Shown: piece after piece, positions 4,625 to 59,912 of the stretch | Layout: each line of letters begins with the position of its first letter | Numbering within the stretch: the stretch's first letter is position 1 | NCBI RefSeq assembly: GCF_000003815.2 | Contig: NC_049993.1 | Coordinates: 12,453,189-12,517,188, forward strand | DNA: 64,000 bases | Origin: Branchiostoma floridae | Lineage: Eukaryota > Chordata > Leptocardii > Amphioxiformes > Branchiostomatidae | Reading direction: 5' to 3' | Made by a program: the position numbers and the translations under genes | Notes under the pieces: model-generated | Told to the model about the DNA's origin: nothing | What the model saw: the letters and a program-made list of their open reading frames with translations, nothing else | The model's database searches: none

Positions 4625-4699
4625 ATGTATGTCCACGCATGTGGTTACCTAACTTCTAGTACCTTGACCTCCAGGTCGTTGGGAGGACAAGGTCGACAT

Positions 4700-7640
4700 A
4701 AACTTCAATATGGTTACACAAACTTCAATATCCATACTACATTCCAGAGAGTATGCAATGATAGTTTGGACAAATCGAAAAGTCGTTTTATTTATGCAAA
4801 AGAAGTCACTGAAAACAAAGACAAATAAACAAACAAAGAAACCCACAAAAAGCGGTAAGAAAAACAAAGTCTGGTTTGATCAATGCTGCTGGTCTTCACG
4901 CCAACGTTTAAAAAGGCTGTCACTAGCATTGAAAAAAGAACCCTGGCTAAAAGAAATTAGATGCAAATATTTCACAGCTTTGCGTGATTACAAGAAACTG
5001 ATCAAACAGCGTAAACAGAAGTACAATTCTGACCTTCTATCAAAATTGGAAGAATTTAACAAAAACAATCCAAAGGAATTTTGGTCACTTTTAAAACATT
5101 TGGACAAAGAAATCAATGGAAAACACAACAAAAATACTTGCGATCCCAATATAACATCTGAAGAATGGATACATCACTTTACAAGCTTAAATAATTTGAT
5201 AAAAGACAACAGTTTTGATACTATCTTCGAAAAAACAGTCACTGAATACCTTAATCAGTTAGATGATCATACCCCAAACCCGTTAGATTTCCCATTCACT
5301 CCAGTGGAAGTCTTAAATGGTTTGAAATTATTAAAAACGGCAAAAGCTTCCGGTATTGACTCAATCTCAAATGAAATGTTAAAGTATGGTGCAAAACATC
5401 TTTGTCAACCTTTAGTGAGTCTATTCAATACTATACTTAATAAAGGCACCTTTCCTTCCAACTGGAATACAAGCATTCTTACGCCAATACATAAATCAGG
5501 TGATAAATGTAATGCAGACAACTATCGAGGAATAGCGATTTCTAGTTGTCTATCCAAATTATTCACACTCATTCTAAACAACAGGCTACAAAACTTTGCA
5601 GAAAGAAATAAACTTCTAGACGACACCCAGTTTGGGTTCCGGAAAAGATGTAGAACCTCTGACAATATTTTTATCTTAAAATCTCTAATAGACAAATACA
5701 CAAAGAAAAAAGGCGGGAAATTATTTGTATGCTTTGTTGACATGAGGAAGGCATTTGACAGTGTCTGGCGAGATGGGCTATTCTATAAGTTGCATAAATG
5801 TGGTATTGGAGGAAATTTCTTTAATATTATAAAATCCATGTATAATGATGTGAAGTATGCAGTTAGATTAGATAATGGATTATCAAACTCTTTTCCTTCT
5901 GTATGCGGAGTAAGGCAGGGATGTAATCTTAGTCCTTTATTATTTAATTTATTCATCAATGATATATCTAAGTGCTTTGACCCCACAAAATGTGATCCTG
6001 CAGTCCTAACCTCAAAATCTCTAAATTGTTTATCCTGGGCAGACGATCTCGCTCTGATTTCATCGTCAAAACAAGGGCTACAGCATTGTATTGACTGCCT
6101 AGAAAAATATTGTAAGAAATGGAAGCTATCTGTCAATGTCTCAAAAACCAAGGTAGTTGTTTTTGGCAAAGGTACTAATAAGAATAACAAAGACAAATTC
6201 CATATTTATGGCAAAAATATAGAAATCACTGACAGCTATACATACCTCGGAATTCCTTTCACATCTTCCGGAAAATTCAAAACCGCCAGGAAATATTTGA
6301 AAACCAAAGCAATGAGAGCACTTTTCAAACTCAAGGCTCTTTTATTCTCCAATAAGGACATTTCAATCAATCTCGGAAAAAATCTATTCGACAAATTCGT
6401 AAAACCCATCTTTATGTACTGTTCAGAAATCACATGCTTTGACCGTTTTTCTAAAAGTATAAGAATCATTGTATCTCATACCAATAACATCTGTGAATCC
6501 TCCTCAAAGGTTTTTTCTACTTTACTTAAAAAACTTGACATTCAAGACAACTTTCCAGCTACCATTAGAAAAACCACATCTTCTGCATTGAATAGTACTT
6601 ATGTTGTATGTTTGGAAAGAAATACAGATAAAGAAACACTACTGCGTCATGCCAATAACCAAATTTTACAAGAGAACGGCTTCCAAATTATAAACCTAGA
6701 TTCAAATCAACAAATTCCAGAATTTGACTACATTGACATGCGCTTCCAAAAATTTCTGTTAGGCATTCATGCCAAAGCCTCAAACGATGGTGTCAGGGGA
6801 GAACTGGGAACTTTCCCAGCTATGATTGATGCCGAAATGCAACTTGTTAAATATTGGCATCGTTTAGTTAACTTGCCCGAAGATGCCCTTCTTCGTGAGA
6901 CTTACAATACTGTTTCATTCGGAGAACATGATTGGATTGTCCACGTAAAAAATATCCTAAATTACCAAGGCTTTGGACACATATGGCTGAACCCGAGATC
7001 ATACCACATAGATACAATCAACACTCAGTTACGACAACGTTTACAAGATATATACGTGCAAAATTGGCATTCCTCTATTCGAACCAATTCTAAACTCTCC
7101 TCTCTTTCTACATTGAATAAGCACTACAAGCAAGAAAATTACATTTCAACCATAAAGAGCCTTGACATTCGTAGGGCAATCACACAACTCAGAATTAGCT
7201 GTCACAAATTAAATATAGAAACCGGGAGATTCAAAAAAATCCCTATCGACCAGAGGGTTTGCCCATTCTGTCCAGAGTTAATTGAAGACGAATATCACTT
7301 TATGATTGTATGTCCCAAATATTCTGAAATACGCAATTCTCTATACAGAAGGTTGTCATTTTATACACAAGGATTTATCTCAATGGACCTGAAGTGCAAA
7401 TTCAAATACATCATGACATGTGACAATCCCTGCATGGCAGATATAGGAAAATATATTAAAGAAGGTTTGGATATTAGAAACTCCTCAACTGATTGTAAAA
7501 GCTTCCAATGATTGTAAGAAGCTTATCCCATACTACAACTCCTGTATTAGTTAGTTAAGCTATAGAACTGTAGTTATGTAGATGCCATACTTTGTACCTC
7601 GTACAATTGTTGTGCAATAAAGTTATACATATTTATGAGG
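4700..7640 (+). mobile_element. LINE retrotransposon copy (5' truncated)
   Basis: The element spans the RT ORF and a short 3' UTR of about 120 bp after the stop at 7511. The UTR holds TTGTGCAATAAAGTTATAC with a polyadenylation signal AATAAA at 7616-7621, the kind of short 3' end typical of CR1/L2/Jockey-like LINEs. No long poly(A) tail is seen. The 5' boundary is not sharp: coding similarity becomes convincing from about 4850. A 12-bp direct repeat AAACTTCAATAT at 4698-4709 and 4719-4730 lies at the probable 5' junction, but I found no matching copy at the 3' end, so the target-site duplication is unresolved. Confidence 0.75.
4710..7511 (+). CDS. LINE non-LTR retrotransposon ORF2-like protein (RT + zinc knuckle), 5' truncated
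   Basis: Uninterrupted 933-codon ORF encoding a non-LTR retrotransposon reverse transcriptase, the enzyme for target-primed reverse transcription. A lysine-rich leader (about residues 1-55) joins a helical linker (60-120) with a W-F-D motif. The RT domain starts near A213-S-G-I-D. The palm carries F342-V-D-M-R-K-A-F-D (first catalytic Asp 344), G400-V-R-Q-G, and the active site W443-A-D-D, where Trp replaces the usual Tyr or Phe. A C-terminal C851-x2-C854-x8-H863-x4-C868 knuckle follows. Full-length relatives of the Jockey/CR1/L2-like groups carry an AP-like endonuclease upstream. None is visible here, so this copy is probably truncated at its 5' end, and the ATG at 4710 is only the first Met in frame and may not be an original start. 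The lack of stops suggests a recent insertion. Clade assignment by eye is uncertain. Confidence 0.9.
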   Translation: MVTQTSISILHSREYAMIVWTNRKVVLFMQKKSLKTKTNKQTKKPTKSGKKNKVWFDQCCWSSRQRLKRLSLALKKEPWLKEIRCKYFTALRDYKKLIKQRKQKYNSDLLSKLEEFNKNNPKEFWSLLKHLDKEINGKHNKNTCDPNITSEEWIHHFTSLNNLIKDNSFDTIFEKTVTEYLNQLDDHTPNPLDFPFTPVEVLNGLKLLKTAKASGIDSISNEMLKYGAKHLCQPLVSLFNTILNKGTFPSNWNTSILTPIHKSGDKCNADNYRGIAISSCLSKLFTLILNNRLQNFAERNKLLDDTQFGFRKRCRTSDNIFILKSLIDKYTKKKGGKLFVCFVDMRKAFDSVWRDGLFYKLHKCGIGGNFFNIIKSMYNDVKYAVRLDNGLSNSFPSVCGVRQGCNLSPLLFNLFINDISKCFDPTKCDPAVLTSKSLNCLSWADDLALISSSKQGLQHCIDCLEKYCKKWKLSVNVSKTKVVVFGKGTNKNNKDKFHIYGKNIEITDSYTYLGIPFTSSGKFKTARKYLKTKAMRALFKLKALLFSNKDISINLGKNLFDKFVKPIFMYCSEITCFDRFSKSIRIIVSHTNNICESSSKVFSTLLKKLDIQDNFPATIRKTTSSALNSTYVVCLERNTDKETLLRHANNQILQENGFQIINLDSNQQIPEFDYIDMRFQKFLLGIHAKASNDGVRGELGTFPAMIDAEMQLVKYWHRLVNLPEDALLRETYNTVSFGEHDWIVHVKNILNYQGFGHIWLNPRSYHIDTINTQLRQRLQDIYVQNWHSSIRTNSKLSSLSTLNKHYKQENYISTIKSLDIRRAITQLRISCHKLNIETGRFKKIPIDQRVCPFCPELIEDEYHFMIVCPKYSEIRNSLYRRLSFYTQGFISMDLKCKFKYIMTCDNPCMADIGKYIKEGLDIRNSSTDCKSFQ

Positions 7641-40001: not shown

Positions 40002-40389
40002 ATGGCGTGCGTTGTCGTCCTCTCCATCATGTACTGCGGCCTGGTGCAGGTCCTCGCCACCCTGACACCAGAACCAGATGTTGTGCACGGTAAAGTAGGA
40101 TCTGACGTGACTCTAACGGTTCGACCGCAGGGGGACCACAGTGTCATCGCTCAAACCTGGAACAAACTGTACGGAGGTGTCCACAGCATGCGCCTGGCGG
40201 TCTACATGTACTCGCCCACCACGGGGACGGCGATGTCGCTCGGGCCGCTGGAGGGGCGCGCATCGCTCGGCAAGTACGGCTCGCTGGTCATACACGACGC
40301 CAGGAAGGAAGATGAAGGTCTGTACGTCCTGACCAGCTTAGTGGATGTTGTTGGACAAGAGGAGCAATACTTTGACTTGAAAATGCGTG
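40002..40389 (+). CDS. Gene A exon 1: signal peptide + cysteine-less V-like Ig domain
   Basis: The ATG in GACATCATGG starts a hydrophobic 19-residue leader (M-A-C-V-V-V-L-S-I-M-Y-C-G-L-V-Q-V-L-A) with likely cleavage before T20. The Ig fold is indicated by G-S-D-V-T-L-T-V (B strand, 33-40), W53 (C strand) and the F-strand block D104-E-G106-L-Y108-V-L110. The B-strand cysteine is replaced by V40 and the F-strand cysteine by L110, so the conserved disulfide cannot form. Such disulfide-less N-terminal V domains are known in vertebrate CEACAM and CD2/SLAM families, where they mediate homophilic or heterophilic binding. The resemblance here is structural, not proof of orthology. The donor is GTGGTAAGT (GT at 40390), phase 1. 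Confidence 0.85.
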
Positions 40390-45637: not shown

Positions 45638-46009
45638 TGCCACCGCAGATATCGTTCGGTGAGCAGAGCCCTCTCCACGTCGTGCAGAACTCCCAAGTCT
45701 ACCTAAACTGCACCGTTAGATACGCCAAGTCCTCTACTGCACACGACATCCAGTGGAGGAAGGACGGCTCACGGCTCTGGGGACGAGTCACCATCATCGG
45801 CAGAGCTACCCAGGGAATGAGATTCACCAACTACCATCGCGAGGGGAACGGACGTCGGATGGAGGTAGAGACCGTTCGAGAGAGCGATGACCTTTGGACG
45901 TCTGTTCTGACGTTTCAGTCCGTACGGAAGGAAGACACGGGCAACTACAGCTGCCACGCCCAGCATGAAGATGGTGCCGTGGCTGCTAGTCTATACCTAG
46001 AAGTCTATT
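45638..46009 (+). CDS. Gene A exon 2: second Ig domain
   Basis: A symmetrical phase 1-1 exon of 372 bp encodes one complete Ig domain, residues 130-253. It begins V-P-P-Q-I-S-F-G and ends Y-L-E-V-Y. Canonical residues are present: C154 (in N-C-T), W169, the L-T-F-Q-S-V-x-K-E-D-T-G-N-Y-S-C block with D229 and Y233, and C235. N153 and N232 are glycosylation sequons. Codon use and splice signals (TTCCAG acceptor, TTGTAAGT donor) look normal. The intermediate C'-D region is long and charged (T-N-Y-H-R-E-G-N-G-R-R region), which suits a V/I-type fold. Confidence 0.92.
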
Positions 46010-49337: not shown

Positions 49338-49715
49338 ATGCTGCAAAGATCACCAACATCTCAGATTCACCACAGGTAGTTTCCGCCGGAAGTAACGTCA
49401 CACTGGAATGCATCGCCCAGGGCAACCCTCCTCCAATCATCGCCTGGCACAAAGAGGACGACCATACGCCCCTCAGGTCGGCCTTCTCAGACGCCAACGG
49501 TGAAACAGGCCGCCTGAACTTGACCTTGACGAAACTCGATGAGAATGCTAGCGGGAACTACACGTGCGTTGCTACCAATGGAGTCCCTATGGGAAAGAAA
49601 GATCGTAGAACTGTGCAGGTTAACGTGTTGACGTCCATGGACAAGTACTTTCCTCCCTCACCAGTCAGCAGCTCCCCCAGACCGAAGACAGAGGCATACA
49701 GCATTACAACGACAG
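49338..49715 (+). CDS. Gene A exon 3: third Ig domain and upper stalk
   Basis: A 378-bp symmetrical phase 1-1 exon encoding residues 254-379. The Ig domain (about 254-352) has N-V-T-L-E-C278, the G-N-P-P-P-I-I-A-W290-H-K block typical of I-set/C2 domains, R-L-N-L-T-L, and D321-x4-G-N-Y-T-C330. Sequons are N260, N273, N314, N323 and N327. It is followed by a Ser/Pro-rich stretch (P-P-S-P-V-S-S-S-P-R-P-K). The domain aligns closely with gene B exon 59553-59912. Shared: N-I-S-(D/E)-S-P-Q, G-N-P-P-P-I, W-H-K, G-R-L-N-L-T-L and A-T-N-G-V-P. Donor CAGGTACT, acceptor ATTTCAG. Confidence 0.93.
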
Positions 49716-50180: not shown

Positions 50181-50530
50181 TTGCTAGCCAGGGTTCTACA
50201 ATAGAAGAGAAGACACCCTTGTCGCCCGTCGTGGAGGCTGAGCCACCCGTCCAGGAGGTTCAACCGCCCGTAGTGGAGGTTAAACCGCCCGTCCAGGAGG
50301 TAGAACCCCCCGATGGAAACCTCGAAGCAGACGACCCGTTCTACGCCACGTTCGTGACCGTTGGAATCGTGACCGTGACCGCCTTCTCTCTGCTGCTGCT
50401 CATGATCGTGGCTGTCCTGCTCTGCCGAAGGACAAGTTCATCAACCAAGGTCATGCGGACCCACATCAGCGGTGACATCATCAGACACCGGCCGCTAAAC
50501 CCTGACGTATACGCAAATGTCTACCGATAA
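50181..50530 (+). CDS. Gene A exon 4: repeat stalk, transmembrane helix, cytosolic tail
   Basis: Terminal coding exon, residues 380-495. A 21-bp unit repeated four times (50231-50314) encodes a heptad of the form (V/Q)-E-(A/V)-x-P-P-(V/D), giving a stiff Pro/Val/Glu stalk just outside the membrane. D-P-F433-Y-A-T precedes a hydrophobic helix (about F437-L460, V-T-V-G-I-V-T-V-T-A...). The stop-transfer sequence is C461-R-R. The 35-residue tail ends D488-V-Y490-A-N-V-Y494-R. Y490-A-N fits the pY-x-N consensus recognised by Grb2-type SH2 domains. It is not a classical ITIM, because the -2 residue is Asp. The stop codon TAA is at 50528-50530. Gene B shares the helix and the V-Y-R end. Confidence 0.92.
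50231..50314 (+). repeat. Coding 21-bp minisatellite x4
   Basis: Units start GTGGAGGCT, CAGGAGGTT, GTGGAGGTT and CAGGAGGTA. First codons alternate GTG and CAG, implying a 42-bp dimer that duplicated. Unit length is a multiple of three, so copy-number change keeps the frame. Confidence 0.92.
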
Positions 50531-58831: not shown

Positions 58832-59088
58832 TCACCGATAGACTTCAACCTCTCTGCTTTGCTCCAAATGTCTGTGTCTGACAACGTCTCGTCTGATGTT
58901 TGTCTTCAGGATTTTTGTCCCGGCAGCTTTCTTTCTTCGACATAGTAGAAAGCCCACAGCGAGCAGTAAGAGCAAAGACAGGGCAGTGACTGTGACGATA
59001 CCAACAGTTACCAACGTGCTGTAGAAGCCATTGTCTATTTCTCCACCTTGTTGGTACACGTCGTTTGGTGATGAGCGGTCTCTCTCGA
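58832..59088 (-). CDS. Gene B last exon: transmembrane helix and tail
   Basis: Phase-1 exon after acceptor TTTTGTCTACAG. It encodes V-E-R-D-R-S-S-P..., a short stalk without the Pro/Val repeat of gene A, then G-F-Y-S-T-L and a helix sharing V-T-V-G-I-V-T-V-T-A with gene A, followed by C-R-R-K-K. The tail shares K-x-L-(K/R)-T-(N/H)-I, D-(V/I)-(V/I)-R-H-R and the terminal V-Y-R. The Y-A-N motif of gene A is replaced by R-E-V-E, so only the penultimate Tyr remains. The stop codon is TGA (complement of 58832-58834). The similarity leaves little doubt that it is a gene A paralogue. Confidence 0.92.
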
Positions 59089-59552: not shown

Positions 59553-59912
59553 CAATTATTGTGTCATCAGCTTCCGTTTCCGGTCCAGGTGCGGTGATTG
59601 CCTTGACCTGCATCATGGCCACCAGCACACTCTTGTTGTCCTTCATCCCGCTGGGCACGCCGTTCGTGGCCTCGCACATGTACACACCGCTGTCCTTCTC
59701 CCCGAACCTCAGCAGGGTCAGGTTCAGCCGCCCCTCCCTCTCCCTGTGCGAGGCTGCGCCCGAGAAGGTGGACTTGAGGGAGGAGTAGTCGCCATCTTTG
59801 TGCCAGGAGAGGATGGGGGGAGGGTTTCCCTCGGCCACGCAGTCTAGAGTCACGTTCGCGTTCTCCAGGACAAGCTGCGGCGATTCCGAGATGTTGATGA
59901 TCTTGGCAGAAT
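59553..59912 (-). CDS. Gene B Ig domain exon (partial gene, penultimate exon)
   Basis: 360-bp phase 1-1 exon after acceptor TTTCTTTAG. It encodes S-A-K-I-I-N-I-S-E-S-P-Q..., N-V-T-L-D-C, E-G-N-P-P-P-I-L-S-W-H-K, R-L-N-L-T-L and D-S-G-V-Y-M-C-E-A-T-N-G-V-P: one intact C2/I-type Ig domain with both cysteines and the core Trp. It has a few residues inserted (S-H-R-E-R-E region) relative to gene A exon 3 and a shorter post-domain stalk (T-A-P-G-P-E-T-E-A-D-D). Upstream exons (signal peptide and other Ig domains) are not found up to 64000 and must lie beyond the window, so the gene is incomplete here. Confidence 0.92.

Follow-up and report, generated by a model that had tools for sequence, protein, structure and literature searches.

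The 64,000-nucleotide stretch of the Branchiostoma floridae genome analyzed here (the window, C15:12453189-12517188) contains a gene whose first exon encodes a V-type immunoglobulin (Ig) domain, D1, without the two cysteines that would join strands B and F, and this absence of the disulfide is a common trait of a paralogue family, conserved across the paralogues of this genome. Within the sequence searched, one haplotype of 513,431,437 bases in 431 contigs, cysteine occupied the B position in 0 of the 53 family rows spanning it and the F position in 0 of 60, rows without the position in question (15 of 68 at B and 8 of 68 at F) having been left out of the counts. Cysteine-free V tips are known as such, best from CEACAM, CD2, CD48 and CD58, receptors that vertebrates use in adhesion and immunity. 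An expanded family of them in amphioxus may be new; among the papers listed under amphioxus or lancelets, no title or abstract opening describes a cysteine-free V family, a weak indication given that the lists were incomplete and subscription papers lay mostly outside them.

Absence of both cysteines in D1 and its paralogues

The B-F disulfide is usual in Ig domains, with CD2 named as an exception in the accessible part of PMC12051499. D1 passes the curated Pfam V-set (PF07686) cut-off of 26 bits with a score of 29.4 (E 9.8e-7, profile positions 2-104 of 109), yet is without this bridge. A sequence-only reading of this DNA had placed a V-type Ig domain in exon 1, with Val40 and Leu110 in place of the B- and F-strand cysteines, a retained Trp53 and cysteine-bearing second and third domains (D2 and D3), and each of these points was borne out: the codons at the two positions are GTT and CTG, Leu110 sits in the motif DEGLYVL, the D1 translation keeps Trp53, and the mature domains D1, D2 and D3 contain 0, 2 and 2 cysteines, respectively. 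GTT is two or three bases away from either Cys codon and CTG is three away, which makes it unlikely that Val40 and Leu110 stem from sequencing error.

We searched the genome with the exon 1 protein (56 matches, E up to 0.001) and with a distant and a third family member (65 matches each, E up to 0.01), and the resulting family set comprises 68 exon rows: 56 from the exon 1 search, eight from the distant-member search and four half exons from the distant- and third-member searches. Counted by position, with half exons a few kilobases apart treated as one locus, these correspond to 60 loci (31 on C14, 17 on C15, seven on C16, two on C2 and one each on C18, C9 and C7); loci were read one exon at a time and may include pseudogenes, and this and other member counts are lower bounds. 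Among the 64 aligned rows, the 50 spanning the B position carry Ala (41), Val (6), Gly (2) or Ser (1) and the 59 spanning the F position carry Leu (36), Met (10), Ile (7), Val (5) or Gln (1), with cysteine in neither column; the four half exons add three B positions, all Ala, and one F position, Val. The sequence-only reading had regarded cysteines in relatives as the mark of a local change, and among the paralogues of this genome that mark was absent. Four residues were invariant in the family rows spanning them, namely the Trp (51/51), Arg86 (60/60), Asp104 (59/59) and Gly106 (59/59), and variable segments lie around residues 57-63, 71-78 and 98-103. A V-set match was obtained for 40/40 members (E up to 1), 11 of which also matched Pfam Receptor_2B4, and the V domains of 37/45 members carry no glycosylation sequon. 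One half exon (L066b) has a single Cys in its aligned stretch, away from the B and F positions. Two near-identical V exons, L049 (C9:7254113) and L053 (C14:14716688), which differ by 12 synonymous changes and one nonsynonymous change, lie on two chromosome-size contigs and may represent a recent copy or an assembly duplicate.

The border of the family was tested using a profile in which both trait columns were masked and which was scored on members not used in building it. Four full-length unused members scored 88.1 to 97.3 bits against at most 53.9 for 70 other V-set exons, and the family half exons, at 37.5 to 70.3 bits, overlapped the range of the non-family exons. With no border imposed, all 56 matches of the exon 1 search lacked Cys wherever they were covered (44 at B and 53 at F). 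Ten weaker matches of the distant-member search (E 2.6e-6 to 0.0075) were placed outside the family; nine of them have both cysteines and one, L072, has the F cysteine only. As an independent sample we searched the genome with Pfam V-set, obtaining at least 120 matches (150 of 694 candidates scored), which by position fell into 45 family exons and 75 outside it. The F cysteine was present in 75/75 of the latter and the B cysteine in 63 of the 66 spanning strand B, the exceptions being L072 (Ser) and L113 and L128 (both Trp), and among the 75 non-family exons read, none spanning both positions lacked both cysteines. Every family row read showed the loss of both, and we saw it nowhere else. L072 (C5:8023369-8023650), with Ser at B and Cys at F, is the nearest to an intermediate state that we found and groups with the cysteine-bearing L074 in the tree (95/90), while L113 (C337:9201-9506) and L128 (C17:13373846-13374151) are related to one another, and their F cysteine is unpaired unless it pairs elsewhere.

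We estimated the ratio of nonsynonymous to synonymous substitution rates (dN/dS) by the Nei-Gojobori method over the whole of D1 in 12 chosen paralogue pairs. Ten pairs were estimable, with dN/dS from 0.02 to 0.55, and two were saturated; between the window D1 and that of its sister gene dN/dS was 0.14 at a dS of 1.9. D1 is under purifying selection in the estimable pairs, maintained and not decaying, and the whole-domain values of these 10 pairs gave no sign of overall diversifying selection.

Gene structure, sister gene and family architecture

The gene predicted from the window has four exons, open throughout, with all introns in phase 1 and bounded by GT-AG ends, and encodes 495 amino acids followed by a stop (Table 1). 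In order, the predicted protein consists of a signal peptide, the V domain D1 (its mature part at 40059-40389 within exon 1), the Ig domains D2 and D3, a proline-rich stalk with a repeat of the PPVQEV type, a transmembrane helix and a short tail. Exon 4 matched no Pfam family. Seven glycosylation sequons are present, none of them within D1, and the tail has two tyrosines, Y490 and Y494. Motifs of the YxN kind are bound by Grb2 SH2 domains, and the tail carries one such motif, YANV. Judged from this layout, the product is probably a single-pass cell-surface receptor with a cysteine-free V tip, belonging to the expanded family, whose members we take to be V-C2-C2 receptors. The V domain occupies a single exon here, as opposed to the apparently split V domains of other members, in which an intron falls before the GR motif (L023, L034, L057, L065, L066 and the half exons L142-L145).

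Table 1. Positions of the window gene's features and of its sister gene (L009); positions are within the window unless a contig is named
Feature	Position	Strand	Evidence
Exon 1: cysteine-free V domain D1, preceded by a signal peptide (residues ~1-19)	40002..40389	+	ATG-started open frame, GTAAGT donor, phase 1; Pfam V-set 29.4 bits
Val40 codon GTT, B-strand cysteine position	40119..40121	+	
Leu110 codon CTG, F-strand cysteine position, inside DEGLYVL	40329..40331	+	
Exon 2: Ig domain D2, both cysteines present	45638..46009	+	Phase-1 GT-AG exon; Pfam Ig_3 45.9 bits
Exon 3: Ig domain D3 (C2/I-set like), both cysteines, stalk start	49338..49715	+	Pfam Ig_3 63.6 bits
Exon 4: stalk with proline-rich repeat, transmembrane helix and a short tail whose last residues before the stop are NPDVYANVYR	50181..50530	+	
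Sister gene stalk/transmembrane/tail exon	58832..59088	-	55% identity with exon 4 across 69 alignment columns (E 3.8e-19)
Sister gene D3 exon	59553..59912	-	48% identical to D3, E 3.5e-33
Sister gene D2, outside window	near C15:12518107-12518442		
Sister gene V exon, outside window	C15:12527178-12527570		66% identical over exon, ~70% in V domain

The window gene and its sister gene, L009, are convergent copies, and the last 68 residues of exon 4 share 55% identity with those of the sister. The V-Ig-Ig-stalk-transmembrane layout that the sequence-only reading had proposed was upheld, while the tyrosine tail it described is not family-wide: the sister gene retains only the last tyrosine, in VYR, and does not retain YANV. 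When 20 family loci were taken at 10 kb each and searched with the domains of the window gene, cysteine-bearing Ig exons, some of them partial, lay downstream on the same strand at 15, and 11 of the 20 had two such exons in the order D1-D2-D3. Among the 12 loci having a D3, nine had, in the next exon, a hydrophobic helix followed by basic residues, as assessed by hydrophobicity only. Motifs of the YxxM type are of the PI3-kinase type, and one, EYIPM, occurs in the tail exon of L012; the tail exons of L024 and L027 (C14) share the motif FYYNMG. Elsewhere in the window, nine other open reading frames were examined and yielded one reverse transcriptase only, in a long open frame of the long interspersed nuclear element (LINE) kind at 4668-7511 (+), and scans of the window for Rfam families (at gathering scores) and tRNA genes returned no match.

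Origin of the cysteine-free state

The sequence-only reading had offered either convergent loss or an old adhesion module, and of these two convergent loss was judged likelier, although the tree decides neither. We consider it quite probable that the disulfide was lost convergently, in one event or a small number of them, within a V lineage of cephalochordates already serving adhesion or recognition, and that this lineage then expanded. With the trait columns masked, the best matches of the family profile outside the family were cysteine-bearing V domains of the same genome (L074 53.9, L067 48.4, L069 46.0 and L078 44.1 bits), followed by other same-genome V domains and JAML D2 (41.9), then by nectin-1 D1 (34.8) and by CD48 from mouse (32.0), rat (31.8) and human (23.3), with the CEACAM N pieces at 24.7-28.2 bits. 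A special kinship of D1 with CEACAM and CD2 is not supported by this comparison. The sharp split between cysteine-bearing and cysteine-free V domains within one genome likewise argues for convergence. On the other side, 17 of the 70 other genome V-set exons outscored the best CEACAM piece and 53 did not, and ten of the 70 are favored by having been chosen because they came next in a search with a family member. The pieces from the PDB were cut by their source alignments, which lowers their scores, and the 80-residue CEACAM pieces were cut short; the longer ones, of 85 and 87 residues, reached 28.2 and 28.1 bits.

For the phylogeny we removed the trait columns, dropped six near-duplicate family rows and CD226 and added CD48 and CD58, leaving a tree that rests on about 100 columns and is poorly resolved, which tempers what it says for convergence. 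In this tree, same-genome cysteine-bearing rows were nearest to family members, while CEACAM was placed with CD48 and CD58 (92/75) and with nectin-1 (82/61), none of these groupings being strongly supported. Tests of single clades rejected neither the family alone (p 0.166) nor the family joined with CEACAM (p 0.165) or with CEACAM, CD48 and CD58 (p 0.12).

Several observations weigh against our overall reading of D1 as the disulfide-free V tip of a maintained receptor family. In the tree without trait columns the family was not one clade, ten other genome V domains standing beside its C14 members, and this, if true, would mean more than one loss. Synonymous divergence exceeded 1.2, near saturation, in five of the ten estimable pairs, no downstream Ig exon was found within the 10 kb searched at five of the 20 loci (L009, L016, L018, L019 and L025, the D2 of L009 lying just beyond the stretch searched), and cytoplasmic tails vary between members. 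Structure prediction from the single sequence reached a predicted local distance difference test score (pLDDT) of 47.6 only. An alignment of D1, D2, D3 and the sister D3 gave one usable model in five (pLDDT 68.1), the remaining four scoring 33.6-37.4, and since that input consists of other Ig domains of the window it biases the model towards an Ig fold. Foldseek and VIA-align comparisons of the usable model returned V-type Ig domains with many tied matches, antibody and T-cell receptor V domains among them at nearly equal Z; because of these ties the matches point to a V fold and not to adhesion. CEACAM chains were absent from the 50 structure matches listed, which excludes nothing. Loss of the disulfide would most simply predate diversification of the family, as a single early event, although repeated loss would also be compatible with the tree.

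The same genes might be diversified receptors for non-self or allorecognition rather than adhesion molecules, a possibility that we consider real and the less likely of the two. The size of the family, whose loci lie mostly on C14, C15 and C16, the heterogeneous tails and the variable segments of the V domain would all fit such a role; the dN/dS values below 1 in the 10 estimable pairs, which are whole-domain values only, speak against it.

Common descent of the cysteine-free V domain with those of the CEACAM and CD2 families, as one ancient chordate adhesion module, appears unlikely. What recommends it is the similarity of the replacements at both positions (Val/Ala and Leu in CEACAM, Ile and Met in CD48), an Arg-Asp pair and cysteine-bearing Ig domains behind the V domain in both the family and CEACAM, the rank of CEACAM15 as second match of the window D1 in a single-sequence PDB search (E 0.14, after nectin-1 D1 at 0.012), and the one-clade tests above, which left the joint groupings unrejected. 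A tree keeping the trait columns also grouped the family with CEACAM against the cysteine-bearing rows (96/88); we set this grouping aside, because those columns constitute the trait and the CEACAM branch is very long. D1 Arg86 and Asp104 align with CEACAM Arg64-Asp82, and since the pair is found in 10/10 outgroup V domains as well, it is not diagnostic of CEACAM. A comparison with CEACAM N domains alone, which preceded discovery of the family, gave the window D1 14.6 bits with the CEACAM N profile, the same level as CD2 and CD48. The unmasked 40-row family profile, run against whole PDB chains, ranked JAML first (63.7 bits over two domains, best domain 38.8), followed by nectin-1 D1 alone (37.7), CEACAM6 N (35.0), CEACAM15 (33.8), mouse CD48 (32.6), CEACAM1 N (31.8) and then other V domains. 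Further against common descent stand the best same-genome matches of the masked profile, which outscore every CEACAM piece, the placement of CEACAM with CD48, CD58 and nectin-1 away from the family once trait columns are removed, and the literature, the available portions of which report no CEACAM homologue in B. floridae (PMC3628338) and no CEACAM/CEA homologue in cephalochordates (PMC4079198). Descent of the family from CEACAM or CD2 is not supported by the sequence comparisons, which gave no evidence of it. That one cysteine-free lineage of V adhesion domains, older than the vertebrates, gave rise to this family in cephalochordates and also to the CEACAM and CD2/SLAM tips strikes us as very doubtful; were it true, loss of the disulfide in a membrane-distal V domain would mark one ancient chordate adhesion module and not repeated convergence.

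A local sequence change, an allele peculiarity or a decaying gene is scarcely credible, and a change confined to this allele was rejected, given an intact four-exon gene, a trait common to the whole family and a dN/dS of 0.14 against the sister gene at near-saturated dS.

Proposed function and comparison with known receptors

Packing of the B-F residue pair, together with the core Trp and the Arg-Asp pair, both of them invariant, would probably hold the fold of D1. The cysteine sites are filled mostly by a small residue at B (mostly Ala) and a larger aliphatic one at F (Leu, Met, Ile or Val). D1 is most likely the binding tip, with its GFCC'C'' face pairing with a V-type domain of the same or a different receptor on a facing cell, and it probably binds partners as the tips of CEACAM, CD2 and nectin do. 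Because D1 and 37 of the 45 family V domains lack sequons, their protein faces should be free. D2, D3 and the stalk would act as a spacer and the tail would signal in a gene-specific manner. With at least 60 cysteine-free loci in one genome of an invertebrate chordate, beside V domains that nearly all bear the disulfide, the family offers an extensive natural experiment on the requirements of a V domain without its bridge, and on whether disulfide loss goes with a role as receptor tip. Further genomes from cephalochordates, tunicates, lampreys and sharks would allow convergence and common origin to be tested against each other.

Among known systems, the N domains of CEACAM1, CEACAM6 and CEACAM15 are likewise membrane-distal V domains with aliphatic replacements for both cysteines, the Arg-Asp pair and cysteine-bearing Ig domains behind them, and the family shows no preferential sequence kinship to them once the trait columns are masked. 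Tails were compared using the immunoreceptor tyrosine-based inhibitory motif (ITIM) pattern; the ITIM, or the activation motif ITAM, borne by signaling CEACAM tails is not found in the window tail NPDVYANVYR, in which the Asp at Tyr minus 2 breaks the ITIM pattern. According to the accessible text of PMC4079198, the CEACAM N-terminal V domain without B-F cysteines is stabilized by the Arg64-Asp82 salt bridge, the CFG face of the CEA V domain mediates homotypic and heterotypic adhesion, and CEA V domains keep a glycosylation site, N70, to which no sequon in the window D1 corresponds.

In the CD2/SLAM receptors CD48, CD58 and NTB-A, the V domain is without a disulfide as in the family, and human CD48 has a GNEQE stretch resembling, by eye, the G-strand GxEE motif of the family. 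CD2/SLAM receptors have a two-domain V-C2 ectodomain and the TxYxx[VI] immunoreceptor tyrosine-based switch motif (ITSM), unlike the window gene with its three Ig exons, and the switch motif is absent from the window protein tail.

Nectins share the V-C-C ectodomain of the window protein and end in an afadin PDZ motif, which the window protein, with its C terminus NVYR, does not have. Nectin-1 D1 was the best single-sequence PDB match and JAML the best match of the family profile, and the V domains of both keep the two cysteines, unlike D1. A lancelet IgV/IgC/IgC/transmembrane/SH3 protein is described as a possible distant nectin relative in the available part of PMC7286890; it has an SH3 domain, in contrast to window exon 4, which matched no Pfam domain. 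Amphioxus also has the VCBPs, which are V-type immune genes. Among invertebrates, V-set domains with unusual cysteine patterns are also found in the Alr allorecognition proteins of Hydractinia.
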